64,000 nt of DNA from Sanderia malayensis. Its lineage: Eukaryota; Cnidaria; Scyphozoa; Semaeostomeae; Pelagiidae. This document shows positions 8,189 to 47,668 of the stretch, piece by piece. The translations under genes were made by a program, and so were the position numbers. The notes under the pieces were generated by a model that had not been told where the DNA came from, did no database searches, and saw only the letters and a list, made by a program, of their open reading frames with translations. The stretch is from positions 3,067,087-3,131,086 of the forward strand of contig RQOL01000772.1 of the NCBI GenBank assembly GCA_013076295.1, in the 5' to 3' direction. The number at the start of each line of letters is the position of its first letter. Position 1 is the first letter of the stretch.

Positions 8189-11100
8189 TTACACAAACGA
8201 ATCACTGTCGTAAGCACCGTTAATGTACGACGAGTTTAAACCGCGCGGTTCCATTTCATACTGATACACCTTTGCAGAACTGATTCTTCTCCCGTTCGAA
8301 GCCCTCCGCCTTCTCCCAGATTTCACCGCGCGGTTCTTTTGTCCAATGGCCGAACTGTTAGACAGACGCCGCTCGGGCGCATAATTTTGTTGTGACGCCA
8401 TACTAGACTGACGCGATAGGTCATCAGAAGCGCCTGAGTAGTTACCGAGAGATAGCATTCGTCCAACGCTGCTTCGCAATTCCCCTGCTTCTCCGTCATC
8501 CAGTTGAATGCTACCGCGTTTCAAAAGTCGTTTAGCATCCTCTTCTCCAAGCTTCATCTTGATTGGTTGCTCTGCATTGTCCAGGCTTGAAGAAGCATTC
8601 GAAAGCAACTCTTCTGTTGTACTTTTTCGACGAGTTGTAGTGCTGCCAAATGGCGAGTCCCTGAAAATGCATGAAGAAGCAAATGTTATCAACAAAACGA
8701 ATTGTATAGAGGATGGGCTCTACAACTAAAAACAACTATACAGAATTGTTATTTTGAAAGCGATGCTATCTTGTTTTTATGAGCGTCTAAATCAATTCAG
8801 GCGGAAACAATAGGACGCTTTTTAAATATATGAAGTAGTCTTGTATTATCCCCACAGAATTACTTTTTTCCCAAGTATAGTTGCTTGTTAAACGCAAAGT
8901 AAGTTTTTAAAAAATACACATTATCTCTTTATCTCTCTCTCTCCTGAGAATTAAACTTTTTAACAAGCACTTTTCATCTGTCAATCACATCAAAAAACAA
9001 TAAAAATTGATTGGTTGGTCGAGCTAAATGTTAATGAAAGCTATTTTCAAGAGAATTGAAATTTAAAATTGTTTTTTGTAGTGACCTGATGTGGTGTATC
9101 ATAATGTAAATCTTTCGTATTTTTATAAAACGTGGCCTACTTTTAGCAGAAGATTTTGAAATTTCACCAATTGTTGGAAAGATAAAATTGGTTTCAAGTA
9201 AGAACAGAGAGCTACCAATACAAGAACAGATAATTGGTAAGTAAGTTTTTATTGCTTCAGAGAAAATTGTTTACCTGATAGTTTCTACAACGCTAATTCT
9301 TCGACCATTGTTGTCTGTAAATTCTTCGCTCACAAAACTTCTTGAGCTTCGTCGCTCTGTTCTCTCTATCGGATATCCAAGTTCTTCTTGGGCCAAATAA
9401 TTTGTTGCCTGTAAACAAAAAGTATACAAACAAATTTTAAAAAAAATACAATTTGCTTCGGGTGGTTTGAAGTTTGACTTATCGCGATTTCAGGTTATGG
9501 GGGCTGGGCTTATTGCATTTCCCAATTTTTATCGAAACTAAAGCATGAAAACAACAAGAACCAATTGAAGTTTGACATTAGGAAATTACGCAAGCAAAGG
9601 TAAAATTTTGCTATGAATTGAAAACGAGCTGGCAGCTCTATTTAATATAAGTCGCACTTCTCGTTGGCAATGGAGAACATATATCCACATTGGTTTTATT
9701 GATGGAGACTAGTTGATGCTAGTAGTGGTCTATCTCAAAATAATACACGATACATAGCATAGCACTGTTTTAGTGTAGCATTAGTATTAAGATTCCCATG
9801 TGTGTATTGGGTTTGCATTTAATGCAATCAAAGCAAAACAAATTAAGCGACCAAAATATTATTTCTGACCAAAGTTCTGCTTGTTAAACCGATAGATAGC
9901 ATCTGGTCCTACAAACAAGCTCAAGAAATTACGTGCTCATCTCGCTATGCAGGCCTACGCTATTTTTGCAACTTGAGGGTAGATTGTTCCGCAAAGCAGT
10001 TTAAACGCTCAGATGAAAGAAAGTCCCAGCGTTCATTTATAGTGGATCCGTCGACTCCAGGTTTATAATCTTGGCATTTGACTCTACTTACCATAGGCAT
10101 TCTACTTTCGCTTATTAAGTTGCCTTGACTCGAACCTCGTCTCAGTCCATTATCGAACCCTGCAGATTCGCCAAAATCTTCATCCAACAATGGCGCGCTA
10201 CGGCGTCGAATTGCCATTCGCGAACTCGCTGCAGTTCGACTTAACGCATCATCGTCGTAATTCTGGCCAATCGCAACAGAGCGCCTTCTGTCAGGTGATC
10301 TTCCACCTGCTGCTCTTCCACGTCTATCAACATTGTTATTGTATGTAGAAATCTGTGATACTCTCGATCTTCTTCGCTCTGTTACTGGATAAATATCACT
10401 GTTGATGCTACTGCTGTCGATTCGGAGGCCTTCAAGTCCATTGTTGTCATCTTGCATGGCTCTTAATGCTGATACAGGAATCTCTATTGCAACCGGCCTA
10501 GTCACGCTACTTCGGCGACGCGCTGGCGATTGCGTGCCTGGGAGCAATAGCGACTGGCGACGGTTGGAATCATTATTCGTAGAGATTTCTTCACTGTATG
10601 ATTGTGAAGATCTGCGCTGCACGCGAGACACACCTTGCTCTGACCCCGCTTCAAAACTTGAGTCACTGTAGTTGCCTGGAATTGGAAGTTGGTCTCCGTA
10701 TAATACCTTAGACGATCTACGGATCTCCGATGAGGTGATAACTGACTCATCAAACCCACTTCCAGAGTTATTATAACCTCTTTCATTGCCCATCACTGGC
10801 ATTGGGCTATCGGAGAAGTCGATAGAAGGCCTGGGTAATCGTCTTTGCTGCACAAAGTCTGCATCAATATCATCCGGTGGCATAGGAATCGGTGCGGCTG
10901 ATTCTTGGAAGTTGGTGGATTGAAATGACAACTCCTCGTCGTATTGATCAAATCTTGAACGCATGTCCCTTGCATCGTTCTCCGATGCATTATTGTAGAT
11001 CACATCATTTTCTAATCGCTGCTGTTCTTGCATTCTGAGTTGATCAAAGCCGTCAAATGCCTGTTGCTGCTCTGCTTCATTGCTGGCAAAATCGCGTGAC

Positions 11101-11650
11101 ATTTGTTCTTGATTTTCCATCGAGTTTGCCGCCATGGACATTCTTCCGTCGTCATCACTCCGTGGCTTTGACAGCACATCGCCAAAAATATCTTCGCTTC
11201 TTCTATCGTCCGCAGCATCGGTAAATTGCGATCGACGACGCTCATTCATCAATGACGAATACAATGGAGGATATGTGATGTTTGATGGCAAAACATCACC
11301 ATCATCATCATCAAAAGTAATGGGCGCTGTTTCAACTAATTGTATTGTGTCTGTGTTCATTTGTTCTTCGTTCACGCCAGAAAACTGGGACACCGCGTCT
11401 CCATCCTTGGTGAATCTGCTCAGAACGCCCCCACCTCCACTGTCGTTGTCCCCACCTCCACTCTCATTGTCTCCATCGCCAGGGATGACGTTATCACCAT
11501 CATCGTTACCATCATTGAAAGTGGGGTCAATGTCTCCGTCTGAGTCGATGTCTGGCTTGATCAAATTCTCATCTGCAGTGTAGTCCCAAGGATCAGTGTC
11601 AGTGTTGTTGGGGGCTGCAAGACCATCTTTGTCGTCTTTTGTATCTTTTC
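8189..11650 (-). other. Cytoplasmic tail exons of the dystroglycan-like gene
   Basis: Exons 11650-10092, 9408-9275 and 8660-8189 encode about 720 residues without known folds. The start is strongly acidic (Asp/Gly/Asn rich). A PPLY motif (codons 11270-11259) fits the PPxY consensus bound by the WW region of dystrophin and by other WW proteins. Arg-Arg-x-Ser/Arg-Arg-Ser motifs follow at high density (for example ERRRSQF, NRRQSLL, ARRRSSV, DRRRSVA, IRRRSAP, LRRGSSQ, ERRLSNS), all suited to PKA/AKT-type kinases. The protein ends in DSDSFV, a class I PDZ ligand pattern. Confidence 0.8.
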
Positions 11651-14600
11651 CTGTGAAGAACAAGCAGGAAAACATCAGTTGGGATGAGGGCTACTGCTAT
11701 GAGGGCTATTATCTAATTATGATTGCAAGATGACGTGGTCATGCTGCCTCACAATGCAATTGTAAGGTCGATCCTCATAGTTACTGCCTTGAGTGATTGA
11801 GTAAAGTTGAGTAAACTACCTGCCACTCCGTCTGCTTCCTCGAGAGATGCATACTTCCCGCCAGGTTGACAGCACATCCCGCAGCAGCCGCAGCACCTCC
11901 CGCAACATCCCGGGCAACAACGCGGGATGCAGATCCAGAGAAGACAGCATAAGAGAATCAACAATGCAATGATGAGTAAAATTATAAAAATCCACCACGG
12001 GAAATCGCCCGATGGAATAATTGGCGGTAGAATGATGGGAATTGTTGCATTTTTACAGCTTTCCGAGGTCTTGTCCTTTACATCAACAACCTGAAAATTA
12101 CAAATATCTAACATTTAGAATTGAAACGTATATATTGGAATTTAAAGCGACATAAATATATTAATAAGTGGTCTATTGGCAATGACAAGTTTTAATGATT
12201 TGCAATGTAGATTCATGGAATGGGTTTTTACCATCAAAATTTGCTAGTACGCAAAAGAAAGTAAAACGTTACGCCCTTTACGCCATACGCAATGCGATTG
12301 AAAATAAAGTAGATCTGGGACTGCTCACCTCGAATTCTGGATTCATGTATCTGACAAATTTTGGATCTACTTCATCGTTGTTTTGAATGAACTTCTCACG
12401 GATAACTTGAACAGTTTCATTCCGACAATTCATCTCGGTGAGATTCCTCAAGCCCCAGATTATAAAAGACATCGTGTTGGTGCCATTAGTTGCGTTGTAC
12501 GTCGTGTAATTATACACCAAAATTGAACTTTTCTCAACATTTGTATAATTTGATATCTTCTCAATAAACCGTTCCACGCGGGAGCAATTCTTACCAAATG
12601 TTGGATCCCGCATGTAAACATAGACTTTGTATTCGAGTCTTGGTACAGACGTTTTTAGCCTCACAAGGAATGAATCTCTCGTCTCCATTCCACATCGATC
12701 ACGTGCAACCGTCATGTACTCACGTCTTGTTGTTGTTGTTGTAAGCCATCCCAATTGCTCCAATCCGTACAAGGTCATAAGTCCGCATATTTTGTAGTTC
12801 TGAATCTTCAGCCAAGAACTGCTGTCAAGCATGACACTATTCATATCGGCAGCGTAAAGCGTAAGATTTCTCGTAAATCCGTCTTCAAAATCGTAAAATT
12901 TGTCGCTACGAATAACATACGTAAATGCTTGGCCGGGGGGGACGATAAGTTCGCTTCGATCGTATCTCAACTCTGGACTTCTGGTTCTGGCGCAGACACC
13001 ATGAAGCGTTTCGGTCACAGCTGTCGTAACGGCGAATTGCGGTTTGAGGCTTTGCTGAAAACTCGCAATGTTCTGCAGCTTGCGACGAACATCTTCGATT
13101 TTGTAGCAGTCGCATTTCGCCGTTCGCATCGAGCAGAAACTCCACGAGAATTGAATTGAGTTACCGCTTCGACTATATGCAACATCATTGATTGCAAAGT
13201 CGTTAAAGAATGCGCCTATTTTTAGGATCAAAGTGATTTCCTGTGCGACACTGGGAGTGCTACTATCAATCGTTGTTTCACCAGACAGCGACAACTGATA
13301 CAAAACAGGAGGTAAATCACCGATTATCCTCACTGTCACTGGCGTCGATCCTTGATTTCCTTCTTTATTAGTAGCAACTAAGATATATCTGTAAAGCCTT
13401 TGAAATTGAACATTGCTTCCTCCCACCCTTGGATAGCCGTAAATGATCTGTTTTTCTTTGTCAAATTGCACCCAGTTGTCTTTACTCAAAGGTTGCCTGG
13501 ACACAGTTAGCAATGACAATGATAGAGATGATGTCCCCCCGTCCTCAGGGTCCGTGAATGTATCAATTGGAACAGTGAAATTCAATCTGCGACAGAGTGG
13601 GACTTCGATTAACAAACTGCGATTTGCTACCGGGGGTAATGTTTGTGGAATAGAACAGTTCTTTGAATTTCCCTCTTTCACACTGGTAACATTTAAAAAG
13701 GGCCTAAGCAATGAGACTAACGTCGGACTAACTGTGTTGTACGCTATAAACATCTTGCTTTTTATTCTACTGATTTCATTTTTGTCGCACGGAAGGCTAC
13801 AGTTGCTGAATTTCATTTGAATGTTGTTGTTGTCTTGCAAAAATGACGTCACTCTAGTATTATAATTCGCATCTCCTAACAACTGTTTTAAAGCTACTTT
13901 CAGTTGCGCAACGTAGTAAACTGGGTACGGCATTGATGAGGTTGTTGTTGTTGTAGCGGTCATGTTGAGAAGGTATGAAGGTTGAACCTTTCCACTACCA
14001 CTGACGATCACAGTAACTTTGGTGCTATTCGCTTGTCCGCAATGGTCTTTAGCTGTTAGCTTCATGTAGTACGTACCGGTTTTTACATCATCACCATATG
14101 GCGCAACGTATATCTTATTGCCAATTAGCTGCATCCAATAGTTGGGCGGTGGGGCTGTGTTGTTAAGAAACGTGAGTTTCATGGCCAGTTTTCCACTTGT
14201 CTGTCCCTCTTGTTCCACTTCGTCGTAGAACGTCGCTGCCGGGATCTCGACGACCAACATTCCGCAACGTGTAACGCGGATTACGCTAATCGTGTTGAGA
14301 ACAACTGGTGGCTTATCGATGGTGTAGGAAACATGGTTTTTCGCTGAAACGATTTTGAAATATCGCGACAAGTAGCGAGACAACTGACTTCTGGGATTAT
14401 TCACTGATGACGTTATCGTTCGGAATGTCGTTTTCAAAGTTGATTCGCTGCTCGAGCACACGTGTTTTGTAACGGAACAGTTTCCAAATCGGATAAAAAA
14501 GGACTCTGAGTTAGGGCCTAGTGTAATGGATTTTGCAAAGCTCAGCAGTCTATAGCTGGAGAGGGACTCCGAGAAGAAGGTAGACAACATAGTTAAAAAG

Positions 14601-17600
14601 CGAACTTGAATGTCGAGATAGGTCGTTGTAAGCGCCGTATTTACTGTTTCAAATGAAGTACTTAATGAGTAGAAAGATTCTTTGTCTTCCGATGTGAAAA
14701 CTGTGAGGGTCGCCTGCGCTTGTTTGCCACCTTTGTCTTTCACGACGATAAGAAAACGCCAGCCATTTGGGTTCGGCGTTCTGACAATATTCTCACTCGG
14801 CAGTGCTATTATTTCTCGCGAAGTCTCGTCAAATCGAATCCAGGAATCGCGTGGTAATCGTAAATTGTCGGTGGTTCTCAGCGAAATCGCCAAGTTATCG
14901 GCATTTCCGTCTTCAAAGTCTGAAGCAAAGTTCGAAGAAATCTTATATCGATGCACACCACAGATTGAAATTGTCAGGTTGAGACTTTTTGGAATAACTG
15001 GCGGTTGGTTTTTACAATTGTCTGTAACGGAAGAAACGCTGAATCCGACCGGAAATATCATTATAAATTCTGGCCTGAGTTGTCCTGGGGATTTGAAAAT
15101 TTTATTATCAAGTTCTTTGACGCTTGCTACAGTGCAGTCAGAAGGTAGTCCACAAACAAGGAACTTTATTGATAACTTTAGAACAGATCCCTGCTGCCGT
15201 GTTAATGAGACAAACTGCAGATCGCTGCGACTGAGATACGCTCTAAGGATATTGAATGCTATGCTAATAAAATATGCATCCACTTTAGTTGATTGAGTAT
15301 TAGTGGTTTCAATTGTGAGAGTGTATTGAAGACCAGAGGATGTTGGAGTGTCTGTGATCTTCAACCTGTCTTCCTGAACTGCCGATACCACACGATTGGT
15401 ACCAGCATCTTTTATGGCCCACGTGAAAGCTGTGCCATTCTTTGGCTGTTTATTCCATGAATTCTCATTTGCAAATGCTTCCAGAACATTCGATGTATCG
15501 TTGAACCAAAACCACGAGTTCAGAGGGAGGGGTTGGAAATTCTTGGCCCGGATTGCAAGTTTTGTACCAGGTTCTAATTGATTGATCGATAGTAGCTGAA
15601 GAAAGTCCAATTTTGTCACGGTACTACAGAATGTTACGTTGTGAATAACGCCTTGAGTTTTGTACGGCTTTTCATCTGCATCGCAAATTCCCACAGCCGT
15701 TAAACTGAATGCGGTTGGAAATTCAGGTTTCATGTATTCATTGAATTGAATTCTTCGGTTTTGAGCCAAATCGTAATATTTAACAAAGCTGTAAGGACTG
15801 CATACCGTGCAATTGACAACTGTTATGAGCATGCGCGAAGAGGTAGAAAATATCACTGAAATCACTCTTAGTCGATTTTCCGGATCACCAATCGACGGAA
15901 ACTTTGATATTTTACGTGTTATTGCTAATATTTTGACCATTTGATACGAGCTCCGTATTGTTGTTTGATAGGACAGCGTCAACTCTTTATCTTTGTATTT
16001 TTTATATGGTTTTCCGTCAATCTTGATCACAAGTTTAGCATACCCTACCATGCCAGAGCTGTCTGTTGCTTTGATGACGTATGTGTATCCACCTTGAGGC
16101 TGGTTTTGCAATGTTTCATTAAGAGGCAGACCGGATATGGTTTGTGAACTGTTGTCATAGACGACCCAACTGTTAAATCCAATCGCCGACCTGTTGCTGG
16201 ATAGAAACTCAATGTTCAAATCTCGCGTCATACCAACTTCATCTGTAAAGAAATCTCCAGGAATTTGATACTTGAATTCACCACACGCACCTGCTGTGAT
16301 GCGGGTCAGCGGATTCTTCGGCTGTGGTGGCCTATTTGGGGGCTGGGTGCAAGTTGTCGTGTTAGCTTTGATGCTTTTGAGCGTGAACTCTGGTGTTAGT
16401 GAGTTGGCAAATGCCTGGGATACTATCACTGTTCCGCTATTGCTATATCTAAACATCTTCCTTTGCATGCTGCTGACTCTCTGATAATAAACGTTGTTTT
16501 TACTTTGCAGTAACAAAGCCATCCATGTGCAATTCGAGAAAGAAATTGTGAATGTTGTTGGATATTTGCTAGCCACTCTTGTGTAGGAGAGTATCTGAAC
16601 CTGTTGCGTGTTGCTGTTAAAATATTTCGCTATTTTTTCGATGAATTTTTTCAGAATGTAAACATCTGTGAAATCCGGGTTCATAGACGTGGTCACTGTG
16701 GCTGTGAAGGAGCATAGCTTCTTCGTCTTCATATTTGCCGCATAACTGTCATAATCTTGGTAGTTTATTTTCAAAGTTGTTGTTCCGCTTGCAGTTGTTG
16801 ATCGGGAACTTGTCGCTGTTACTCTATACGACATCTCTGAGGATAGCCTCGTATACACAGGCACTGCATCGATGCTTTGCGAGGCTGTATGGAAATTAAC
16901 AATAGAGCTCGATGATAAACCACTGCCTGTTGATGACGTCATTGTGAGAAGCATCTGTCGCGTCGTCTGTCCCAAACTACTACGAAAAACATCGGACGGA
17001 ATCGTATAGCTGAAAAATCCACAAATCGGTTTTCGTATTATTATTCGGTAAGTTATTGTGATAACTTCGGTAGTCGTTGGAAGACACTTGGACCCGTTAA
17101 CGTAAATGTAGGTGGGGGTTAGCTCAGGTGCCATTGCCGCTTTGAAAGCATCGCTCGGTACTGTGTTGTAAAGGTTTTTCTGCAGCTTTTGCATAACGGA
17201 AGTGACGTCAGCAGCATTGCATCGCATCGTGCAGTTTTGCCAACTCAATAAATTCATTGCATTGTAAGATTGAATGGTTATTTTATCACCTTGTGCGTTA
17301 CCATCAATATACAGACCGAGTTTGCGTGTCACGCTCATGAGCAAGTCAGCCGTCTTCGTGTATTCGTTGAACGTTGCTGTCGTGAAACCGAGTACAAATG
17401 TGACATCAGTTATAGGAGCGGCGCTTGCGATTTTAATCTGATACGACACGTTCGCCGTACGACCCGACGAGTCGGTTGCGACAATCAGATACGAGTATCC
17501 CACAAACGACGGAATGTTAAGTTTGACGTTTTTTCCCACTCTGCCGTAAACTAGCTTCCTGCGCTCATCCAACTGCACCCATTCGTTCGGTCTGACTTTT

Positions 17601-20600
17601 TGTCCGTTTGTGTAACACAGTGACAAGCTTAGATTTGTCCCGTCGCGAGCGTCTTTGAATAAATCAGTGGACAAGTAATCTTTGAACTCTGTACAAAGAT
17701 ATGCGTAAGCGCGCAGTTTTTCGACTCGTGCAATTGGCGGTGACTCTATACAACTGTAACTTGCTTGGATGCTGGTCAGTGTAAAGCCTTTCGAGGCCAA
17801 GTGGGATGTGAAGGAGCTTCTTGCTGAGCCATTCGCATTGAGCATGCGTGAGAATATCGCCGCAATTGCGGAACGATGCGATTCACTTAGGCCCCATTTC
17901 GCAGCTTTCATTGTCGAGAATGCGAAAGAGCAGTTGCTGAATACCAATGAATAAGAGAAGGCTGAAGTCTTCTGGAACTTCGACACTTTAATGTTGATGC
18001 TCACGTCTTGGTAGAAACGGTTTATGGCGCTTACAAGTTTGTACAAGACATCGAGGTCAGCTAACTTAGATGATCCGAAGTTTCGCTTCACATTTAACGT
18101 TGTAAAGCAATCACTTGTGTAAGGATAATCGAGGACATTGACTTTCAGTTGCTTGTACGCTTTTAGACCTCGACTGTTTGTAGCCTCGAGTTGGAAGTAC
18201 GATGTCTGCATTGGAGGCTGGCTGGATGACGTCAATGATGATGTCATTGACGTTTTCTGAAGCAATGAGCTTTGATAAATGGCGTAGATTTGCAGAGTAG
18301 CTGTGTTGAGTTGGATCCAGGAATTCGATGGCAACTTGTTGTTTTTGCTGTCGAGCAGACGAATTCTCATATTGTTCATTTCGCCGTCAGTCCTATCATA
18401 AAACGTGGAACTCGGAACCTGGAACGTGAGCGGGGAACACATTGTGATGTTCAGTTCTATTTTGATTGAGTTTGGACTTGGTGGGTAGACGGGGGTGTCG
18501 CACGATGAGATGTAATACACACGCTGTAACGTGAACACAGTGCGATCTTGAAACATTTGTTTAAACCGCGTAAGTTCACTTAGATGTGATCGATGAAGTT
18601 GCTTTGTCTTTTGCAACACTGTTGATGTACTGCATTGTTGATAGTTGCATGTGAGCCACGTAAAGCTACGCGAATCCACCAGACCAGCTTGTGATGTGTA
18701 GTCTCTCGTTATCACACTCTGACCGTCATTGCTCAGCGCGTAAAGCTGTGACGTAACATTGCTTATCGCGATGCCACCGCTGACGTATGGGCTAGTGGAA
18801 CTCGCAGAGCTCGCTAGTGTAAACTCGAATGTTATGTTAAAAGGAGACATTGTTGTCGTGCTTTGCAGCTTCGTGATCTCGACAGGCAAGGTGGCGTTTT
18901 TGCCCTTAGAGTCTGTTGCTTGTAAGTAGAATTTGAAGACTGTCATAGAATCAACCCTTTCTTTGTCTCGCATTGACATCATCAATTGTTTTCTCACAGT
19001 GTCGATGTTAGCCCAACTTTCAATTCCAACAGATTTGTAATCCTTAGTCAATAGTTCCAACTTCAAGTTGAACGTAGTACCGTCTTCGTAGTCATAAAAA
19101 AGATCTGATTGAATCGCGGACTGCCGATAACCACAGTTCGGAATTGTGTAGCTTAGTTTGGTGATGTTTTCTATTGCAACAATTGGCGGTATGTTTGAAC
19201 AAGCGCCGGTGAATACAGTCTTAACCGATTTAACCGTCAGCTGGTTAAATGCCGAGTAAAAAGCGGTTTGCACGGTTTTCCTGTCATTCATGAACAGTCG
19301 CATCAATACCTTGGTAACCAAGCCTTTGTAATCAACTGGGATTGTTTGTTGTGAGGAAGATGTTGACGTCATTGATACGTACTTTGCATAGGAGGGAGAG
19401 CAGTAGCTCCAAGAGAATGTAAACTGAGTGGTTGATTGACGCATGAAATTCACTAATCCAATTTCAGAAGCACTGAGTTTGAAGTAAGATGAGATTCCGC
19501 TCAATGCAATCTGCGACAAAGCGTTATTGCTACTGCTGGCCCCTAGCGAAGCATCGGTATTGAATACGATTTGAATCTGGCAATCTCTCAGTGGTTGAAT
19601 GGGCCCGTAGAGCTGTGCTTTGAAGGAGTTTGAAGCGGACAGTTTTGACGCATCCGTTGCCGTAACGATGAAAGAATAACCACCAATGGGTTGCGATGCA
19701 GCAGATGTGGCAGTCGCAAACGCTGTTAAAGTCTGAGACGCAATGTCGAATTGCATCCATGAATTAGAAGAAAGTGGCCTATTGTTTTTGTCGACAAGAC
19801 TGAGCGTCAATTTGCGAGTGTCTCCTTCTTCGGGGTCGTAGAATGTACTTGCCGGAATGCGGAATGTGTACATCCCACACAATGATATGTATATCGTTGT
19901 GAGTCTGGTTTTTACATACGGTGGATTGTTAGTTGTCCCGCCGCATGGACTTTGCATGCGTGTATTTCCAAATTTGACGGTGAAGGCAGGGGACATCGCA
20001 GCTTCAAACGACGGCGTGACTCTGTTGCCTGTAAACAGCATGTTTTTCACTTTGGTTAGCGCTGCTATGTCACACGGGTTATAGGACACTGAACAGTTGG
20101 CGTAATTGAAGGTGTGCATCCCCTGACTTAACTGAACGTGTTGTATAAGACCTACGCTTGAAGTCGACGTATCACGGAGGTACGACCGCAGGGAATTTGC
20201 GAACGATATTGTGTTATCAATAACCTTTGCGTATCTATTCGCTTTAGTGTGCACAATTGTGTAGAAATACTTTGGTTCCTGATACTGCGTGAATTGAAAC
20301 TCTACCTTGATGGAGCCTTCTTGGCCTGTCTTATCAACAGCTACTAGTGTAATGACAGTGGATGTTGTTGTGTACGCAGTTGCGATATCCCGCGTTGGCC
20401 AGCCGTAGATTACCTGAGATGTTGCATTGAACTGTACCCAGTAATTCGATGGGATCACAGTTCGGGTGCTGCCAAGATATAAACTCAAGGACAACGTTCG
20501 AGTATTGCCATCTTCTGGGTCCGTGAACAAATCCGCCGGCACCACTTGGTTGAATCCGCCGCAGTATGATCCAGTTATTGTCCATGTTTTCTGTTTTGGC

Positions 20601-23600
20601 ACAGGCGGATTCAACGGTCCTTGGCACAAAGGATCACGGTACACTGCCGTTGACGAAACCGTGTACTTCAACGCGAATTGGCTTGCGAATTCCGTCGGAA
20701 CTGCCCCTTGCGAGGTGATAATTTTGCGAAAGTAACTTGAAGCTGTAGATTCATCACATTTTCGTGGCAGCGTGCAAATACTGCTCCTAACGTTGATCGT
20801 ATTACTCAACGTTGTAGAATACGAGAGAATATTGGTAAAATTAGACTTGAAATATCCATTGAGGATAATCATGATGTCCCTTTCTTCTATAAACTGTTGC
20901 CTAATCCTTCCACGGGTGACGAGCTGCATGGAAAACTGGTAATACTTTTGAGGCGTGTTGGCCGTGTTGAGTATCGTCACTATCACAAACGTCTCCGTGT
21001 ACAATCCTCCACTGTCTGATGCTCGTATTGTTAAATTATAACCTTGGATTGGCTGCTTCTGAAGAACTTCGTTAGTGATAATGCCGTACAGCGTGTATCC
21101 ATGTGATAGAAATTGCACCCAGCGATAATTACCACTGACCGGTAGTCCGTTGATTGTTGTTACGCTCAGACTGAGTGTTTTGTCTTCTTCGTCGTAAAAA
21201 GTATTACGGGAAATAGTACGGCTAAAATGCGAGCACATTTGAACAGAAATTGGTTTTGGAAGAGAAACTACTCTTGGTGGGAGATTCTTCTTTTCACATG
21301 CTCCAAGTCTTAAGACCTGTGTGTGCTGTATCGATACGTCATTGCCCATTGCAGTTTTAAAGGCTGGTAGTGGCTGTTGCGATGACTGTAGCATTGATGA
21401 AGTTTTTCGGAAGTTTGCTTCATCGCACTGATTGCTCGGCAAACTGCAATTGCCAAGATCCACGATGAAATAAGGCTGGTGATTGGGTGCCTGGTGAATT
21501 TTATGGTAATGAAAATCGTTCGGATTGCCGTTGAAGTACGTCGCAAACCGAGTCATGAAACTCAGGAGAATTTCGTTTCTCGATGGTGGAGTTGCAGCCG
21601 TGTAGGCAAAAGTGACGCGGGTGACAATGCTAACATTCGGTGGACTTTTGTTCAACTGCAATCGAAGGTCTGTAGTGACGGAGATTCCCCTTTTCGTTTC
21701 GGCCTTGACTTTGAAGTTCAATGTTGTTGCCATGATGCCAGCAAGGGAATTATCACTGAGAACGACGTACAGCATCTGCGACTTGGCATTGAAGCTGATC
21801 CATTTGGTGGCACTGTTGATAGCTTGGTTTGAGGATGCGTTAATCAAAGATAGCTTCAGGTTCCGCGTGTTGCCATCAATATTATCGTAGAATGTGTTTT
21901 CAGGAATACGGTAAGCCAAGTAGCCACAATGACTGATTGTGATCGTTGGAATAGGGTTTTGGACAACAGGTGGTGTAATATGATCTTTGCATAAGCCGTT
22001 TCTCGAAAATGTCGTCTTTGTAACATCAATACCCGCTTGCAACATCATTGTCTTGAATGCTGGGTTCACACTTGTGCCACTAATAACCATGGCCGCCATT
22101 CTATCAAGATTAGCGCTGTTGCAACTGTCTCTTGGCAAGGAGCAGCTACTCCATTCCGCATTAAATGTCACGCCAGTTCGGAGATTTGATGGCAGTTTGG
22201 CATATTCAACAGAGTTTAGGATATTCGATGAGCTGAAATACTGAATAATTCGACTTCTTATTATTTCGTATTGCGATACGAAGTTGCTATTAGATGGCAG
22301 GGACTGGAATCGGTATTGCATTGTGACATTCTGAGTCGCTGGCCTCGAATTTTGAGATATTTTAATAACCAATGATTGGACTGCTTCTTGTTTGTTATAG
22401 TCAGCAGCTACCAGGGCCACAGTTACTGAACTCGACGTTAGACTAGCTGCAATTTGATTTGTTGCTAGTATCGAGAGCTCCTGCTTCGCCTGGTCAAAAG
22501 AAATCCAATGATTTTGATTGTTGTTCTTAAGAGACAAGGCCAAATTTCTGGTGTTTCCCTGTTCCCTGTCGTAGAATGTCCCTGTAGGGATCTTGGCTTT
22601 GTACGTTTGACAAGAAGTCACAGTAATTGGTCCAAAAGGTGCAGTCACAGAAGGCGGGCTGTCTGTGAGACAAGGGCCTACGTTTGTCTCTGATAGAAAC
22701 ATTTCAGTGAACTCTGGCGCAAGAGCTTGTTGGAAAGCCGTTTGCAATGTCCCGAAACTGTTCTGGAGTTTATTCTTGATCTGTTTAAGGGCGAGAACAT
22801 CACAAGGATCATAACGTAGCGAGCAGTTTGACCACGTTAGAATCTGCTTATTATTTGCAGCTGTGGTGTGCGTGATTACTTGGAAATTCTTTTTTGCATC
22901 GCCAAGATAAGCGGAGAGTTTCGTTGCAAACACATACATAGAACGCTGTTGTGTGGATGCCAACATGCTGCTGACTCTTGCTTGAATTGTAAACCTGTGA
23001 CTGTATGGGGTCATTGCTGCGGCAAAGACAACATTGATTGTCATATTCGTTGATAGGTTTGTTGAATCAGTTGCCATCAGTGTGAACGAGTGTTGTTTGG
23101 GATATGATGACAGACCTTGACTCTGTGTCAACACTGCTGTAATCAAGCGTTGGGATGGATCAAACTGCAACCAGAACTCACTCCCAATTGTTTCCCCATT
23201 ACTCTTCACTAGATTCAGTGTCAACATATTCGTATTACCATCTTGCTTATCAGTGAATGTGTTAGAGGGGATCTGGTATGAAAATGGGCCACAGAATCCG
23301 ATGTTTAGAGTAGGTATCTGTGCGTTTATCGTTGGTGGCTCTTCAACACAGGGACCGCTGAGCGATTCGCTAACACTTGTCACCCGAAATCGTTTGTCAA
23401 TGGCAGAGTTTAGCAAATTGGCATTCACGATCTTCGCTGTGCCAGCAGTCGCTTGGAAAATCACACCTCTAATCGCACTGATTGCCGTTGAATTGCAAAC
23501 ACCGCTTGACATATTGCAAGGACTCCATACAAATACAGCAGTAGTAGTACTAACTGTGCGATAGGAGCGTACATGTATGCTCGGTCCGGCAGGGAAAAGA

Positions 23601-26600
23601 CTCTTCAAACTGCTCAGCAACAGAGCGATTTGTAGTACGTATGGTTCTTTAGACAGTCCACTGTTGACATTAAGGTTCATTGTTACATTGTAATAAGCCA
23701 TTGGCGATGGAATCTTAGGGGTAAATTTCAATGGAATGATAGAGACTTTGTTATCGCTGTCAGTGGCTCTTAAGTTGAATACCTCTGGAGTTCCGCCCGA
23801 TTTATATGCAGAGTCATCGGCAATGGCGTAGATTGTCTGCAATGTAATGTTTATATTGACCCAGCTATTCGTAGGCAAGACACCAGACGTCGAGCTCAGT
23901 AGACTGAGCTTCAGATTTCTCGTGTTGCCTTCTTCCTCGTCCATAAACAAGTTCTGTGGAACAAGATAGCTCGCAACATCGCAATAAGGGACGTACTTTA
24001 CTTCCCGAAAAAATCGCAAACCTTCCGGATCTAGTAGATTAAAGTACGGCGGGTTGCGGCTGGCTATGCGACATTTTCCATAATACTGCACATCGGCGTC
24101 TTCCACAGTAAACAGAGGCTGCATTGCCGCTATGAATTCAGCACTTGGCCTCCTGCCTGTGCGCATCTTAGCGAAGATTGAATTATGACCTATGACGTCA
24201 CATATGTCTGTGCGCAGACTCGTGTTCTGGTAATACAACCTGATCCTACTACTTGACAAGATGAACACAGGGGTTTGATCGATTATGATGTTGTTGATTA
24301 TTGATTGTTGAAAGTACGACTTGAGGCGTGCGATGAACATTGTGATAACATTTGAGACAGGAAGCAGACTCTGGCCGTAGGAGAAGCTAATGAGGTATGA
24401 TAAATAACGTTGGGGTGCTACCCAATTCAAAGAGATGACAACGTTTTGCTGCGCGGATACTCCATCACTATCGACAGCGCGTAGTATGTAATTGAAAGTC
24501 TGCATGCGTGTCGCAGTGAAAGGGTATCCCGAAATTAGCCTTGACGTCGAGTTGAACCATATCCACGACGTTGAAGGAAGCGCGTCTCCGTTCTGCTGGA
24601 GAAATGACAACGTCAAACTGCTAGCACCGTCGTTGCCGTCTCTGAATGCATTGTTTGGCACAACGTAGCTTAGAGAACCGTACTGTGGTATGTAAAGTGT
24701 TGGGATTCGATAATTTACGGAAGGCGGGTCACAAACACCGGAAAGTTTAATTGAAATTACTTCGGCTGAAAAACTTGCTGCTGACAATAGGCCGGTTTGA
24801 AAGGCCGTGTTTGGTGTTCCATCGCTCTTCAACAGCTTCTGTCGAACTTCATTTATTTTTACCGTGTCACAGGGTGCTTTAGACAGGGTTGATATGGTCC
24901 AAGACACCACCGTTGATACTGACGCAGTCGCACTGTAGCTGATGATAATCACAGAAGACTGGGAATAGCCAAGATAGCTGCTGATGTAGGACAGAAAAGC
25001 GCGCGAAAACGCAATGTACGATGACGAGGAGCTGACTGACCTTTGCGTCATTGTTACACTGAATAGTACTTTTGAGATTGTTGATCCAGCTGACGGCAAA
25101 GTGATGCTAAATGTTTGATCGCTCTCAACAAGAATTGGAGTGAGCGCAACAAGCTTGAAGGAATGAGTCGTTTGCTGGTTTGTTGCCACATCCAGCCTCG
25201 CTAATCCGTGGATTTTTGCATTCTGGTCCAGATATTTAGCACTCAGGCCAATCCAATAGTTGCTTGGAACTTTGGTATTGTTTTGGAATCGCAACTCGAG
25301 GCTCAAGCGCATGCTGCTTAGAAACGACGTCCGAGATATGGAGTAAGAGAAGTATTGTCCCACTTTCAGGGTGAAACTTTGCGACACAACCATAACAGTG
25401 GCAGCTGCGCTTGACAAATGACGACACGATAGTTGAAAGTTTTCAGTTGTTGCAGACGTCAAGCTAAATTGCGGGCTCAATGCGTTTCTAAGGTTTGCCT
25501 GCGCTGTTGCTCCGTCTAGCTTTCCGCGCAGGCTTATGATGGAAGCGAGATCGCACGAATTAGCAACGAGGCTTCTTGTGCTGAATTTGTATTGAATAAA
25601 CAGGGCGGTATTGCCGCTTCTTGTCAATGTAAACACGCTGTTCACCATGTCGTTCGAATTGACGCTCAAATAAGGAGCCAGTTTGCTTTGCAGTAAGAAG
25701 AGAATATCAACCTCTTTGTAGCTCGTGACAATTACGTTGGTTGTTGAAGACAGTTGCTATGGAACAAGAAAAAATTTAGCACAATGCAGAACATAAGTCA
25801 TGCTCAAATCATGGAACATAGAAAGATTTTTGCTCCAAGAAACTTGAAGTGAAACAGTACAGTGTGAAACAGTACAGTAAACGATACAGTAAACACTCGC
25901 ATAGGAAACCAGTATATTGAGAATCTTTAGGCCTGACTCAAAGTAATAGAAAAACAACAGACTATTGTATTTGAACAACAGAACGGATGAAAAATTTAGG
26001 TTTTTATATATGGGTGCTTATTGTATATCAAGGTTCAACTGTGTACTTACCAAGGTTCGAAGATAGTTAGGAGGTGTGACTGGTCCATTTAGGGTTATTC
26101 TCAGCTCTGTGTTGCTTGTTTGCCCAGCTGAATTCATAACACTCAATCTGAACTTGTAGTAACCAGCAGTTGGTTGTTGATTGTAAATTGACAGAGATGT
26201 GTACATGTTAAGAGTTTGTTGGGCTTGGTTCAAGCTGATCCATGAATCTCGCCCGAGCACCTGGCCTGATGATTGATACAAATACAGTGTGAATGCGCGT
26301 GTCCCGCCCCCCTGGCTATCGCGAAAGGCATCTGCTGGTATTTGAAAATTCTGTCGGAACGTAGTATTCGTCAGAATCACATTCAAACTTGATATTGGCG
26401 GGTTTGTTGTTGTTGCTGCCTTTGTTGTGCTGAAATGTGGAAATAATGAATTATTAATACAGGCGCGTGGGAAAAGTTGGAAAATCTGACGACATATATA
26501 ATCTTTAACAGTGTTCTATTCCTCCCAACATAAAATGCCTGTGACGTATTTTTGCCAACACAAGCAAAGTATGCATGTGGCGAAATTCAGCTTAGCTAAA

Positions 26601-28056
26601 CCTCCGACAAGTGCCCTAATATAATCAATCATCTAATAATTGTATCATGTTTGATTTATGATTGCCTTATTAGTGGTATGCAACTGTAGAGATGTCGATT
26701 TAAAGCGTATCAATTGTTAATGTTGTTTTATTATTCAAACATACGTAAACAGGCGCCATGATTGAACATTGTTCAGTTTCGAGCTATTGGTTGTTTTCAA
26801 ATTTAAGCATTTGGATTCGAGCATAAAAGAAATGTCATCATCATCATCATAACTAGAACTATCGCCGATGAAATTTATGAATTATTTGCTGATTTGCAGG
26901 TTACCAAACTTTGCATCAGGTTTGCCATTGGTTTGCATGGTGGACAAGAAAAATTAAGCTTTGCTGTGGAGAAAGGTGTGCGAACTATGTGATGGAGTAT
27001 AAGCTCGAATCACAATGAAATTATTCTTGTCCTGTGCCACAAGAAGCTGAGAATTGAAGATGGCTATATTCCCAAATTGCTAAGATTTATTTGTCTTGCA
27101 CCGAAGCACAATTTTACATGCAAACCCGTGTGCGTTAGGCTTGTTATATTCATTGTATCAAGATTCTATTGACCATATGTATTGCTATGCTATGACGTCA
27201 GAACGCTTGCTTACCTTGGGCTAAGAGTAGTTGGCAGAATTTGGTAGCCAGAAACGACGCTCCATGCTATCACAGGGTATCCAACCAACTGCGACAAACT
27301 CGAATCATCAACAGCATTCTTCAATTTGGTCACCCTGTTGTCATTGGCCGATACCTCGTTGCAAGCAATGAAGTATTCTACTGAGGTAACACTGGACAAC
27401 GTCCCAATATGACTGCTTCTTCCTGATGCAATGAAGTTTGGCTCACGGATGTGTGCCAAATAGATGTTCCTGCTTCGCGCGCCCATGTAGACTTGCGCGG
27501 TCGTAACGCCGAAAAACGTGGCTACTTTGTTTTGGATTGAGGTTTTTTGTGATGCGCTGAGCGAGTTGAATGTGACTTCGAGTGCAAATTCGGCCTTTGT
27601 GACGCGGGAGGATGCTGGACACCCGAAGGCAAGGTAGAGATCTGCTACAGAACGTCGTTTTCTTCTGCTTCTTGTTCGCATTCCCTGATCTCCATCGATA
27701 GCAACGTCAAAGCAATCGCAAAGTTTTTCATTGCTTTTCACGCACGCGGTGAAGCGGTTGCCGCGGATTTTTTCTGGCACAAAACCGTAGACCGATTTGC
27801 CATCCGGCGAAACGCAAATCCAGTCTAGTTCCATCATCGTTTCTTCATCCACAACACTGATTCTGCCGCCCGTGTCGCTGCAGTCGACGCGACGATGAAA
27901 GAGCTCGCCGGGCTTGTATCTCATGTGTACGGCAGTTGCATTGCCTTTATCATAAGCATCGTTCTCACCTGCTGCCGCTTTGCCGTGAGATATCTGAAAT
28001 AGCAGTAGGTGCAGAATCGCGCTGTGAAGCGTCAAGAAAACCTTCTCTCGATGCAT
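8189..28056 (-). CDS. DAG1: Giant dystroglycan-like transmembrane receptor
   Basis: Seven exons on the minus strand: 28056-27215, 26429-26051, 25756-12329, 12090-11820, 11650-10092, 9408-9275 and 8660-8189. Phase is consistent and they encode 5,694 residues, against 895 in human dystroglycan. Order of parts: a signal peptide; an alpha-DG N-terminal region with a furin-like RSRRKRR site near residue 130 and a module ending SQLVGYPVIAW, close to SAQLGYPVVGW in alpha-DG; a short Thr-rich linker; about 20 CADG plus S72/SEA-like pairs; a transmembrane helix at about 4915-4938; and a roughly 755-residue tail. CADG units read like IP..TFYD.EDGNTR..L..L....WIQFN, as in the CADG just before the alpha/beta cleavage site of DG. 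Dystroglycan links laminin-type matrix to dystrophin. A matrix-receptor role here is inference. Confidence 0.87.
11820..12090 (-). other. Transmembrane and Cys-cluster exon of the dystroglycan-like gene
   Basis: This exon encodes the end of the last S72-like module, a proline-rich stem, one hydrophobic helix (WWIFIILLIIALLILL and onward) and a juxtamembrane segment with 13 cysteines in about 26 residues (CCPGCCGRCCGCC core). Such clusters at the inner membrane face are typical palmitoylation sites. An acidic tail follows in the next exon. Confidence 0.85.
12329..26429 (-). repeat. Tandem array of about 20 CADG + S72-like module pairs (protein-level repeats)
   Basis: Each unit is about 660-700 bp (220-235 aa). 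The CADG half has a CG..SY.IP start, a FYD.EDGNTR-like core and an ATDS.G end. The S72-like half has an NCSLP...CD core, then P.F..AM.P.F and G.C...PP. FYD-equivalent codons fall near 12888, 13547, 14222, 18398, 19092, 19845, 20520, 21190, 21893, 22570, 23250, 23938 and 24640, showing the regular spacing. I count one CADG in exon 2 and 19 in exon 3, and the last S72-like half runs into exon 4. Copies are diverged at about 20-35% protein identity by eye, so the expansion is old. The first unit in exon 3 and the unit near 15.6 kb are the most degenerate. Confidence 0.88.
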
Positions 28057-30003: not shown

Positions 30004-30828
30004 CTATACTGTTTTAACACTGTTTAACAACGATTGATGGTTTAAATTTTCCTCATCAGCTTCGCCATCAGTTCCGAGTTGCTTTGCAATATATTGCAAC
30101 TCTTGCATTCCTATCGTTCGCTGGCCAACTTGGTGCTCGCTCAATTTCCGGTAAAAATGAACAGCAAACAGAATGAAAATTACGCAAGTTGGGACCATGA
30201 TTGCTGAAGCTGCAATTGCTGCCGGCACGTTCACGAAATACAATTTCACCCAAAGAATGACGGGTATTTCCAGCAGAAAAAGAAGAGTGCCCAGCCCGGT
30301 GCTGAAAATCCACGCCATTTCAATGTATCTGTGAAGTTTCTCGTGAGGCAGCTCTCCGAGTCGTGGCTTCATCTGGGTTGATGACGATGGCTCAAGTTGG
30401 ATGGGAGCTGCACGAGACAGTTCTATTGATCTGATGTTTTCAGCTGTCTCAATGTTCGGTAAGATGCAGACTGATATCATCAATGCAAACACGTGAACAG
30501 ATATTAAGCAGGTTGTTAAGAGGCTGAATGTAATGAGAAGAACATGTGGTAAATTCTGTTCTAGATTCAGTTCCACCATGGCTACCTACAAAAGGTAAAA
30601 ACAAATGAATAAAATACCCAGAAAAGAGCAAAAGGCCTTGCCTTTTATTTACGGGTTTTAAGTGCCAAAGAACGGGATTCCTTGGGGTGTTAATGTGATT
30701 CAGCTATTCATACAGAAACATTTTACCATCGCAAATCCAGACATTAGCCCAGAAGTTCTGCTTGATGCTTTCAATTTTGCTCTGGTCAAAAACAGACCTC
30801 TCAGGTAATAATCTTGCCTTTGATTCAT
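30004..30828 (-). CDS. ORAI: Orai calcium release-activated calcium channel
   Basis: Two exons on the minus strand, 30828-30727 and 30585-30004, encode 227 residues. Exon 1 (34 codons) holds the TM1 extension AKLKASSRTSGLMSGFAM, and the splice rebuilds AMVAMVE, where the Glu is the selectivity filter (human E106). TM2 (HVFALMISVCILPNIE), TM3 (FSTGLGTLLFLLEI, with the conserved Glu) and TM4 (IMVPTCVIFILFAVHFYRKL, with the conserved Pro) all match. The C-terminus is a short helix suited to STIM binding. Orai forms the hexameric plasma-membrane channel of store-operated calcium entry, opened by ER STIM. Differences from vertebrate Orai1: the cytosolic TM2-TM3 loop has an insertion of about 20 residues, and the TM3-TM4 extracellular loop is only a few residues. 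Confidence 0.95.
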
Positions 30829-31376: not shown

Positions 31377-44467
<13,091 letters not shown>

Positions 44468-45679: not shown

Positions 45680-46744
45680 TTAATTTTGCAACAATAAAGG
45701 CATTATATCTCCTGAAACTGCAGATATTTTAAAATCAGCTAAAGGATCACTTCTTGTCTTGCCAATATTAACAATTCCAAAGGGTTTTTTCTGCTCTTTT
45801 GCAGCAAGTGCAATTCTATAACTTGAAAATGTTTCTGTTGACGATCCAACCAGCAACATGGCATCTGATTCTGCTAAGCGTTTATTAATGAAACCTTTAA
45901 CACTAGCTGGGACATTGTCTCCAAAGAACACGATTTTTGGTTTTAATATACCATCACATCTTTCACAGTTTAGCATCTGAAATGACTCGATCAATTGGTC
46001 GTCTAACATGATGTCACCATCTGGGGCATCCTGACCTCTCACAATTCCACCCCAACTTGAATTCAGCTTCTCCAACTTGGATTGCAGCTCATGTCGACAG
46101 ATGTCGTGTTTGCAACTCAAGCATTGCACCCTGAAATGACAAATATATGAAAACTGGGAAGTTTAATAAGAGAAATAGACAGAGAAACGACAAGCAACTT
46201 GAAAAGTTAACCACTTCAGAACATTAATAGGTAAGTAAAATATATAGCTTATTTTCATTTGAACAAAACGACAGCGAAATTTAAATACAGACCTAGACGA
46301 AGTGCCATGCAATTCCGTGACTCTTGTACTCCCAGCCTTCTGGTGTAAACCGTCGACATTTTGCGTGACCAGCCAATGAATCTTGCCATTTTGTTCCAAT
46401 TCTGCAAAAGCCGCGTGTGTTTTGTTGGGTTGTTTGCTGGAGAAAATAGGCCACCCGGCGAAATTTCTCGCCCAATATCTCAGCCGTCTGTCAGGCTTGT
46501 TGATGAAATCATTATAAAGAATAGGCCTGTGTTTGCTGACAGAATATAAACCTATACCTTCTGATCTATAATCACGGATTCCAGATTCAGTTGAGACACC
46601 GGCTCCTGTAACAACAAAAAGTCGACGAGATTTGTCAACGAATTCCTTCAAAATTTCAACGTCTTGATGTGAGACTGCGTTTGCACTCGCTCGGGGAACA
46701 AAATTTGAAATCGCTAGCGACGACAGATACTTTTTAAATATCAT
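45680..46744 (-). CDS. SIRT4: Mitochondrial sirtuin SIRT4
   Basis: Two exons, 46744-46293 and 46130-45680, encode 300 residues (human 314). The sirtuin Rossmann motifs are complete: VVTGAGVSTESGIRDYRS, the SIRT4-type RYWARNFAGWP, the NAD/catalytic QNVDGLH with the catalytic His in VTELHG, zinc cysteines CLSC and CERC, KPKIVFFGD, LLVGSS and VNIGKTRSD. RYWARNF and the short zinc module place it with SIRT4 (class II). SIRT4 acts in the mitochondrial matrix as a lipoamidase/ADP-ribosyltransferase that restrains pyruvate and glutamate dehydrogenases; this is family knowledge. The N-terminus is short, basic and hydroxylated, as expected for a matrix presequence. A MITE lies 170 bp upstream of the ATG. 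Confidence 0.93.
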
Positions 46745-47668
46745 CGTTTCGTTTATAATTCACTATATTACAATTCACAACTTTTAAATTTTGTTGTTAT
46801 TTCGCCTTCCACAAAAAATTTGTTGCTTACCGCAAAATTCGTGCAACTTTTGTATGCCAACCTCGGTCCCACGGACCTCGCGCAACATCGAGGCACGGAC
46901 AAATTTTGGGATACCGTATTTCCTCGATTAAACGCCTAATCGAGGGGGGCCATTATTCGAGGGGGCGTTTATTAGAAAGTACAAGATCACAGGCTCTGTT
47001 ATTGGGTCCAGAAAAAAAGAAAATGGTTTAGTTGAGCCTTGCTTTATCAAGCAACAACGTAGAAAATGAAAGTCGCCATGGTTTTGCACAAAGAGGGGGC
47101 GTTTAATCGAAGGGGGGCGTTTATTACAAAAGCTGGCAGCATAAGGGGGCGTTTATTCGAGGGGGGCGTTTAATCGAGGGGGGCATTTAATCGAGGAAAT
47201 ACGGTACTTCAGTGTAGCACCTTTATGGGTGGGCGGAGACCTTATGGGGTACCAGTATTTCTGATTAACAATGTGAAGTGCCCGCTATATAGTAGTTGTG
47301 ATTTTACAACATATCTGATACTTTTGATGAAATAATAGAATGAAATATGCTATGTTAGCATGTCTGCTCTTTGGTCAAATTCTGCAACAAAGTGCACCCA
47401 AAATACAAACCATTTCATTTGTGGCATATATATATATAAAGAAGCATTATGGGGGAAACAGTGAACAATCAAGGAAAATACTTCTTAACCCTACAAGATT
47501 AAATATATTACAAAAAAACAGAAATGTCAAATATGCTTAAGAACTGACAAATGTCCATGAAAAATGTCTGTGGATGTTACTGAGATGAAATTAAGATTTT
47601 ACTAAAGAGCACATTTGTGACGATTGAAACATTTATGATGGACAGCACAAGAGCATGTCTGTATAAAC
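46745..47668. other. Intergenic region between SIRT4 and Elongin B
   Basis: 5' flank of SIRT4 and 3' side of Elongin B. It contains a MITE at 46914-47204; the rest is AT-rich with no gene I can support. Confidence 0.6.
46914..47204. mobile_element. MITE with CCGTATTTCCTCGATTAAA ends and TA target site
   Basis: A 291-bp element with near-perfect inverted ends (CCGTATTTCCTCGATTAAA and its complement), flanked by TA on both sides (46912-46913, 47205-47206). Inside are several direct and inverted copies of GGGGGCGTTTATTCGA-like blocks, giving strong G-run strand bias. No open frame; non-autonomous, Tc1/mariner-like by its TA site. Confidence 0.85.

Follow-up and report, generated by a model that had tools for sequence, protein, structure and literature searches.

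A giant dystroglycan-family protein with 20 CADG+SEA-like units in the jellyfish Sanderia malayensis

A seven-exon gene encodes the 20-unit protein

We analysed a 64,000-nucleotide stretch of Sanderia malayensis contig RQOL01000772.1 (the window; all window positions count from its first letter) and describe a gene on its minus strand, 28056-8189, encoding a dystroglycan-family protein in which a pair of CADG and SEA-like domains occurs 20 times. The gene comprises seven exons with GT/AG splice ends in consistent phase, giving 17,085 nucleotides and 5,694 codons with a single terminal stop (Table 1), and these features confirm the phase-consistent gene of that length proposed at the same positions in an earlier sequence-only reading of the window. 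Exon 3 is free of stop codons over all of its 13,428 nucleotides and lies within an open frame of 4,492 codons.

Exons 2 and 3 belong together because unit 1 is divided between them. Exons 3 to 5 also belong together, since array and membrane span lie in one open reading frame (ORF) in two relatives: in P0021, an ORF of another source, 17 units run without a break into membrane span and tail, and P0022 carries 26 units and a membrane span. Exon 1 is linked to exon 2 by phase, domain order and the EukProt protein model. This model agrees with the product of the window gene at every aligned residue (0 mismatches) and departs from it solely by a 40-residue gap in unit 14; it possibly derives from the same assembly and is therefore not independent support for the gene model. 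The gap removes part of the unit 14 SEA domain including a cysteine kept in 14 of 14 relatives, and we therefore take it as a false intron of that model.

It is very improbable that separate genes or collapsed repeats were taken for one gene through a gene-model or assembly error. The nature of the link between exons 1 and 2 would allow for such an artefact, but the array occupies one long open frame, its units are only about 20 % alike and hence no assembly duplicates, related ORFs have the same unit order, and the EukProt model is identical except for its gap. We rejected an assembly artefact on the divergence of the units and the conservation of their order.

Table 1 Features of the window gene, related loci of the genome and neighbouring features. 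Positions are those of the window unless a contig (C) is named; stapled, with both cysteines of the pair predicted to join CADG and SEA
Feature	Position	Strand	Description
Exon 1	27215..28056	-	842 nt; holds the start codon, an N-terminus resembling a signal peptide (by eye), a doubtful IG1-like stretch and the S6-like domain; splice donor GTAAGC
Exon 2	26051..26429	-	379 nt; unit 1 CADG half
Exon 3	12329..25756	-	13,428 nt; unit 1 SEA half and units 2-20
Exon 4	11820..12090	-	271 nt; SEA end, transmembrane helix, Cys-rich juxtamembrane stretch
Exon 5	10092..11650	-	1,559 nt; cytoplasmic tail
Exon 6	9275..9408	-	134 nt; tail
Exon 7	8189..8660	-	472 nt; tail end, stop codon, C-terminus DSFV
IG1-position stretch	27667..27948	-	residues 37-130; hhalign scores within shuffle range
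Furin-like basic site RTRSRRKRR	27652..27678	-	residues 127-135; putative
S6-like region (alpha-dystroglycan N-terminal subdomain 2)	27217..27645	-	residues 138-280; weak support
U01	25466..26404	-	residues 290-504; split by intron 25757-26050; no staple cysteines
U02	24776..25408	-	no staple
U03	24110..24730	-	no staple
U04	23399..24031	-	stapled
U05	22709..23341	-	stapled; contains best Pfam DAG1 stretch
U06	22031..22660	-	stapled
U07	21335..21976	-	stapled
U08	20663..21283	-	stapled
U09	19982..20611	-	stapled
U10	19235..19927	-	stapled; one SEA cysteine moved to domain start
U11	18539..19192	-	stapled in window gene
U12	17786..18487	-	stapled; SEA cysteine relocated
U13	17120..17743	-	stapled
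U14	16385..17071	-	stapled; SEA cysteine relocated; 40 residues missing in EukProt model
U15	15719..16333	-	stapled
U16	15041..15682	-	stapled by eye; CADG column unscored
U17	14357..15007	-	stapled; without usual last SEA cysteine
U18	13694..14314	-	stapled
U19	13034..13639	-	stapled
U20	12332..12982	-	juxtamembrane; no staple; groups with canonical dystroglycan units in tree, weakly supported
Transmembrane helix	11926..12000	-	predicted, about residues 4914-4938; aligns with like stretch in P0021 and P0022
Cys-rich juxtamembrane stretch CIPRCCPGCCGRCCGCCGMCCQPGGKYASLEE	11836..11931	-	residues 4937-4968; similar in P0021, gC, gD
PPLY (PPxY) motif	11259..11270	-	residues 5101-5104
gC	C726:2266685-2278795		18 units, U05 and U06 missing; the frame just upstream carries the first half of U01
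gD	C815:3505646-3514742		at least 13 units, same order, one with unclear fit
gB	C726:4690515-4701119 (L007-L008)		10 units, three near copies
Canonical-type dystroglycan	C569:3348623-3352882 (L010:4624-8883)		one unit
Second single-unit gene	C569:2547716-2549551
Multi-S6 paralog	C829:2533848-2541868 (L040/L041)		six mucin+S6-like modules, one CADG+SEA unit, membrane span, Cys-rich collar
RNF34/RFFL SAP domain	2399-2989	-
Orai channel gene	30004-30585	-
KDM2-like gene	39565-44467	+	Jumonji helical, CXXC, F-box, LRR
Sir2 family gene	45680-46759	-
Ubiquitin-like gene	48052-48516	-	resembles elongin B (named by eye)
Satellite-like array	49304-51991		184-base unit, 14.6 copies, 93% matches
Tandem repeat	63277-63669		10-base unit, 39 copies, 97% matches

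The array consists of dystroglycan-type units

Starting from a single 231-residue stretch, a hidden Markov model (HMM) found 20 domains on the first pass (cut-off E 10) and 21 after six rounds. The 21st hit (residues 155-186, score -4.5) was discarded, which left 20 CADG+SEA-like units of the dystroglycan IG2_MAT_NU type between residues 290 and 4882. The final E-values of the units (5.4e-43 or better) are circular, as the units trained the HMM, and were not used as proof. A non-circular comparison was provided by a profile that covers all units but one (19 of 20), which matches PDB dystroglycan chains (best 8yt8, E 3e-30, over profile positions 3-211 of 211); its best cadherin match in the PDB is far weaker (4e-4). 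The unit HMM and this profile together uphold the proposal of about 20 CADG-S72 pairs and their kinship to dystroglycan. Searching the 4,492-residue frame with Pfam at an E 1 cut-off recovered DAG1 (E 9.5e-30) in 5 stretches, the best of them in U05, and He_PIG, a CADG-type family, in 3, so the Pfam check that had been suggested gave a divided answer: single models miss most units, while the 19-unit profile does match dystroglycan.

Pairwise identity between units ranges from 12 to 29 % with a median of 20 %, values so low that the units are old duplicates and not assembly repeats. None of the 20 units has Gly-Ser at the aligned cleavage site, which is present in the canonical-type dystroglycan of the same genome. 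Like long cadherins and protocadherins, the protein has a very long extracellular cadherin-like array and one membrane span, but its CADG domains alternate with SEA-like domains. Membership of the cadherins or protocadherins was rejected on this alternation, on the preference of the 19-unit profile for dystroglycan and on a Pfam Cadherin match of only E 0.13, which falls below its cut-off.

Unit order is conserved among relatives

Relatives of the window protein (P0007-P0022) were counted as ORFs, not species; P0023-P0026, proteins with other Pfam domains, were omitted from family counts. Among the 14 ORFs P0007-P0020, ten have 20 units, three have 19 and the short P0011 has 15, and for all 272 detected units (272/272) the best-matching window units follow one another in the order of the array without a break. 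P0021 keeps its 17 units in order with U04-U06 missing. Of the architecture that the sequence-only reading had proposed to look for in relatives, the unit order is found in all of P0007-P0020 and, minus three units, in P0021. For P0022 the BLAST matches follow the order less clearly; the tree places seven of its copies at U03 and leaves P0022.13 and P0022.24 unassigned.

The tree was built from 99 units out of the 378 available at that stage, leaving out P0007-P0020 and P0034-P0037; the paralogs gC and gD of the S. malayensis genome (see below) were found later. In it every one of the 20 window units groups with its positional counterpart in P0021, in P0022 or in both, with the lowest support at U04 (98/64). 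The last units form one group (100/99) placed with canonical units, a placement that is weak in the careful tree (91/66), whose bootstrap had not settled, and has 96 by SH-like approximate likelihood ratio test (SH-aLRT) in the quick tree. Three ORFs with 7, 5 and 5 units and the canonical tail LPPAYVPP at their C-terminus (P0027, P0030 and P0031) form a clade of their own (93/83) and look anthozoan, judging by unit number and tail. Because these shorter arrays stand apart, the 20-unit array looks like an independent and old expansion. Sequences sharing the 20-unit order are 27-35 % identical, and the order is probably older than their split.

A role as a receptor for cell-cell adhesion or recognition, with the many diverged units binding other cells in the manner of long cadherins, is possible on these data yet rather unlikely. 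The CADG domain is cadherin-like, the units have diverged yet are conserved in place as if they had separate jobs, and several paralogs of differing length exist.

Cysteines occur in pairs within units

We scored a cysteine pair at HMM column 17 (in CADG) and column 179 (in SEA), units with gaps at these columns being left unscored. Within the window 15 units carry both cysteines, 4 carry neither, none is mixed and 1 is unscored. The same rule is obeyed by 13 of 13 units of gB and the three single-unit genes of the same genome (6 both, 7 neither, 0 mixed), and by 280 of the 282 scored units of P0007-P0022 (209 both, 71 neither, 2 mixed; 33 of 315 unscored). All 27 scored units of gC and gD (27 of 27), which were retrieved and examined once the rule was already apparent, followed it (21 both, 6 neither, 0 mixed; 6 of 33 unscored). 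Pooling the giant units (n=338 scored), which leaves out the three single-unit genes, all with neither cysteine, gives 251 with both, 85 with neither and 2 mixed. Canonical-type units of other sources (n=30, 10 of them insect) include 0 with both, 28 with neither and 2 unscored. Fisher values ignore kinship and were not used for this pairing.

When column 17 is matched instead to column 179 in the unit that follows, 82 of 299 cases are mixed, and when it is matched to that in the unit before, 77 of 299, gapped rows being treated as without cysteine; inside the window 3 of 19 are mixed in each direction. Pairing within a unit is favoured because pairing across units fits worse. Joint loss of both cysteines has recurred, in U05 of P0018, in U10 and U13 in P0016-P0020, and in U11, where both are absent from 9 of 14 relatives (in two groups) and from gC and gD. 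A missing SEA cysteine in U10, U12 and U14 is offset by a new cysteine at the domain start. Since both cysteines occur or vanish together, a disulfide between CADG and SEA within one unit is the likeliest reading for 16 window units, and we refer to it as a predicted staple. Co-occurring extra cysteines, one per domain, are a new observation.

U01-U03 and U20 are unstapled in the window, and the scored relatives concur for U02 (12/12), U03 (14/14) and U20 (13/13). The juxtamembrane U20 is also unstapled in P0021, P0022 and the same-order paralogs gC and gD. This distribution, together with the weakly supported grouping of U20 with canonical dystroglycan units, would suit a shed ectodomain or a force-gated signalling receptor, in which unstapled U20 would be cut under load transmitted by the stapled rod. 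In the portion of PMC6586460 drawn on here, SEA-like domains with their neighbouring domain, dystroglycan's included, act as contact-induced proteolytic switches in Notch chimeras. We nevertheless regard such a receptor as unlikely, as U01-U03 are unstapled as well and the Gly-Ser autoproteolysis site is absent.

The head, membrane span and tail depart from the canonical plan

A signal-peptide-like start and a single membrane span, in type I topology, are read from the sequence only. The alpha-dystroglycan N-terminal domain that had been proposed for the head is supported in part, and weakly. Its S6-like half drew only 3 PDB matches at E<=10, all of them dystroglycan N-terminal domains (E 0.33-0.43), and its hhalign score of 33.7 lies above the shuffle maximum of 17.6 (n=60), the region exceeding all 60 shuffles with each of two profiles. 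An S6 profile of a paralog ranks the region first (E 4.4e-4, best single domain 0.14, against 0.22 for the best of 200 shuffles), the paralog locus having itself been found with the window N-terminus. The IG1 half has no support: hhalign gave 13.5 against insect dystroglycan N-termini (19 of 60 shuffles as high or higher) and 12.1 against a mixed profile (37 of 60). The head has no Pfam match, and a homology search with the N-terminal exon returned nothing at E<=0.001. By tblastn, no counterpart of this exon appeared upstream of gC or gD, whose head may differ from that of the window protein or lie farther off.

Exon 1 is unbroken from the start codon through the S6-like domain, with no intron where IG1 would be. 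The furin-like site precedes the S6-like domain and does not follow it. Unit 1 begins about 10 residues from the S6-like domain, and the sequence between them is a short STTKAATTT linker with no mucin-like central region.

The Cys-rich collar after the membrane span is common to the window gene, gC, gD and the multi-S6 paralog, and is shorter in gB; we take it to be a palmitoylation site. The tail (752 residues, counted from 4943) is probably disordered over exon 5, whose tail frame has no Pfam match. A PPxY tail had been proposed, and its PPLY is indeed present; this sole PPxY of the tail is internal, about 590 residues ahead of the C-terminus, and the dystrophin-binding PPxY motif is absent from the C-terminus itself, which reads DSFV and presumably resembles a PDZ ligand. 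PPLYS is common to the tails of the window protein and P0021, and PPxY is presumably a WW-domain ligand motif. The tail contains 17 RR/RK-x-S/T sites, whereas 2,000 shuffles average 1.5 and never exceed 6, and we assume that RRxS sites serve basophilic kinases or 14-3-3 proteins.

A canonical-type dystroglycan and several paralogs share the genome

Whole-genome searches scored the best candidates only, so that the family comprises at least the loci given in Table 1. Each gC unit best matches its window counterpart at 41-65 % identity. The canonical-type gene has a furin-like site, a Ser/Thr-rich region, the Gly-Ser site, PPPTY near the C-terminus and a C-terminal DSQV, again presumably PDZ-ligand-like; an acceptor-like CTACAG lies inside its IG1 stretch, at the intron place of known dystroglycans. 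The gB gene has Ser/Thr-rich linkers, PPPPYSP in its tail and three almost identical units, a recent duplication. In the multi-S6 paralog most S6-like modules stand behind Pro/Thr-rich stretches and four are nearly identical, the other half of dystroglycan having been amplified. The genome also has matches to dystrophin-type EF-hand_2 at four places, to Sarcoglycan_2 and to Glyco_transf_49, which we take to be the Pfam family of LARGE. Two Glyco_transf_49 matches (L031 and L032, on contigs C809 and C810) score equally with one in-frame TAG each, perhaps a duplicated or haplotypic stretch.

Multiple units are not in themselves new. The parts of Adams and Brancaccio 2015 (PMC4582122) used here describe two CADG+SEA pairs in arthropod, Saccoglossus and Trichoplax dystroglycans and six in Nematostella, contradicting the view that described dystroglycans have one pair, and speculate that enlargement stiffens the ectodomain and places the N-terminus farther from the cell. 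The two-unit forms duplicate the module likewise and reach about 1,000-1,200 residues in arthropods. Nematostella vectensis dystroglycan resembles the window protein in its tandem units before one membrane span, in an alpha/beta cleavage site that is not conserved and in a cytoplasmic region enlarged by insertion; it differs in having six units against 20. Dystroglycans of two and six units have thus been published, as has the suggestion of an ectodomain made longer and more rigid (PMC4582122, PMC5216574), and the 20-unit form is a new variant. Among the matches listed, titles and abstract openings gave no description of a giant dystroglycan, subscription papers and preprints being mostly outside this search; two jellyfish papers mention dystroglycan in passing in the text available to us (PMC6441219, PMC12259307).

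Canonical DAG1 shares with the window protein the CADG+SEA unit, the S6-like head (weakly supported in the latter) and, as predicted from the sequence, a single span in type I topology. It has 1 unit against 20 and a basic collar where that of the window protein is Cys-rich, and the window protein adds the extra cysteine pair and is without the mucin-like region, the Gly-Ser site, the C-terminal dystrophin motif and an intron at the IG1 position. As far as PMC4582122 was available, the Gly-Ser site is also missing in Nematostella, nematodes and several insect orders, and its absence is therefore not decisive on dystroglycan membership; in the same source the dystrophin-binding end is counted as conserved outside Placozoa and urochordates, where it is missing too. 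The intron inside IG1 is called universally conserved in dystroglycans in the accessible text of PMC5216574.

That the window protein is the species' own dystroglycan, lengthened, and acts as a laminin receptor coupled to dystrophin appears quite unlikely. Units, head and topology are dystroglycan-like and the EF-hand_2, Sarcoglycan_2 and Glyco_transf_49 matches would be in keeping with such a role, but the canonical-type gene exists in the same genome, the window protein departs from the canonical plan in mucin-like region, cleavage site and C-terminal motif, and its collar is Cys-rich, not basic. Of the proposal that tandem duplication turned a compact receptor into a long rod, what stands is the duplication of the pair to 20 units and hence a very long ectodomain; simple lengthening of a compact receptor is contradicted by the same points.

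A stapled rod as the proposed architecture

We consider it fairly probable that the gene encodes a dystroglycan-family type I protein with an S6-like head on a stapled 20-unit rod, one span, a Cys-rich collar and a long tail, serving as an adhesion or spacer rod. As far as sequence can establish them, the gene, its units, their IG2_MAT_NU kinship, the conserved order and the missing canonical Gly-Ser site are its firm parts. An interdomain disulfide in 16 units would mean that a unit is not easily opened or cut, and the stapled array would form a stiff, force-resistant rod. A domain of this kind measures about 4 nm, and about 40 domains would give an estimated length of about 160 nm. The rod would keep the head at a long distance from the cell, where it could attach to matrix or to a second cell through a presumed ligand. 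Unstapled U20 would keep the canonical form and is possibly the sole membrane-near place able to open. The collar is probably palmitoylated, and the phosphorylatable tail may tie the protein to WW-domain proteins through PPLY and to basophilic kinases or 14-3-3 proteins through RRxS.

Several observations weigh against this proposal. The cysteine rule is broken in 2 of 282 units, P0007 U10 and P0022.10, each with the SEA cysteine only, and cysteine number varies among the 16 stapled window units, 12 having four, U17 three and U13, U18 and U19 five. The S6-like head does not match a profile of three canonical-type N-termini, support for the head is weak, and no IG1 domain is detectable in the window protein by hhalign, which does no better than on shuffles. 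A mucin region of the matriglycan-bearing kind is missing, so that we do not expect laminin to be bound by the established mechanism.

More tentatively, the giants may make up an old receptor family in its own right inside the dystroglycan superfamily, paralogous extracellular rulers of several lengths (10, at least 13, 18 and 20 units in this genome) with disulfide-locked internal units, in which mainly the juxtamembrane unit, and with it the outermost three, would be free to open and load would be focused on one membrane-proximal proteolytic switch.

Dystroglycan is a central cell-matrix link and has usually been studied as a compact receptor. That such long relatives are conserved and have, in most units, a predicted staple suggests that rods were assembled from the two-domain module on more than one occasion. 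The giant array may serve to test, in a natural setting, whether shedding is driven by the opening of CADG-SEA, and it raises the question of what role a large extracellular rod would have in a jellyfish that swims by deforming a thick matrix.

Neighbouring features of the window

Besides the dystroglycan-family gene, the window contains an Orai channel gene, a KDM2-like gene, a Sir2 family gene, a ubiquitin-like gene and an RNF34/RFFL SAP domain, together with a satellite-like array and a short-unit tandem repeat (Table 1).

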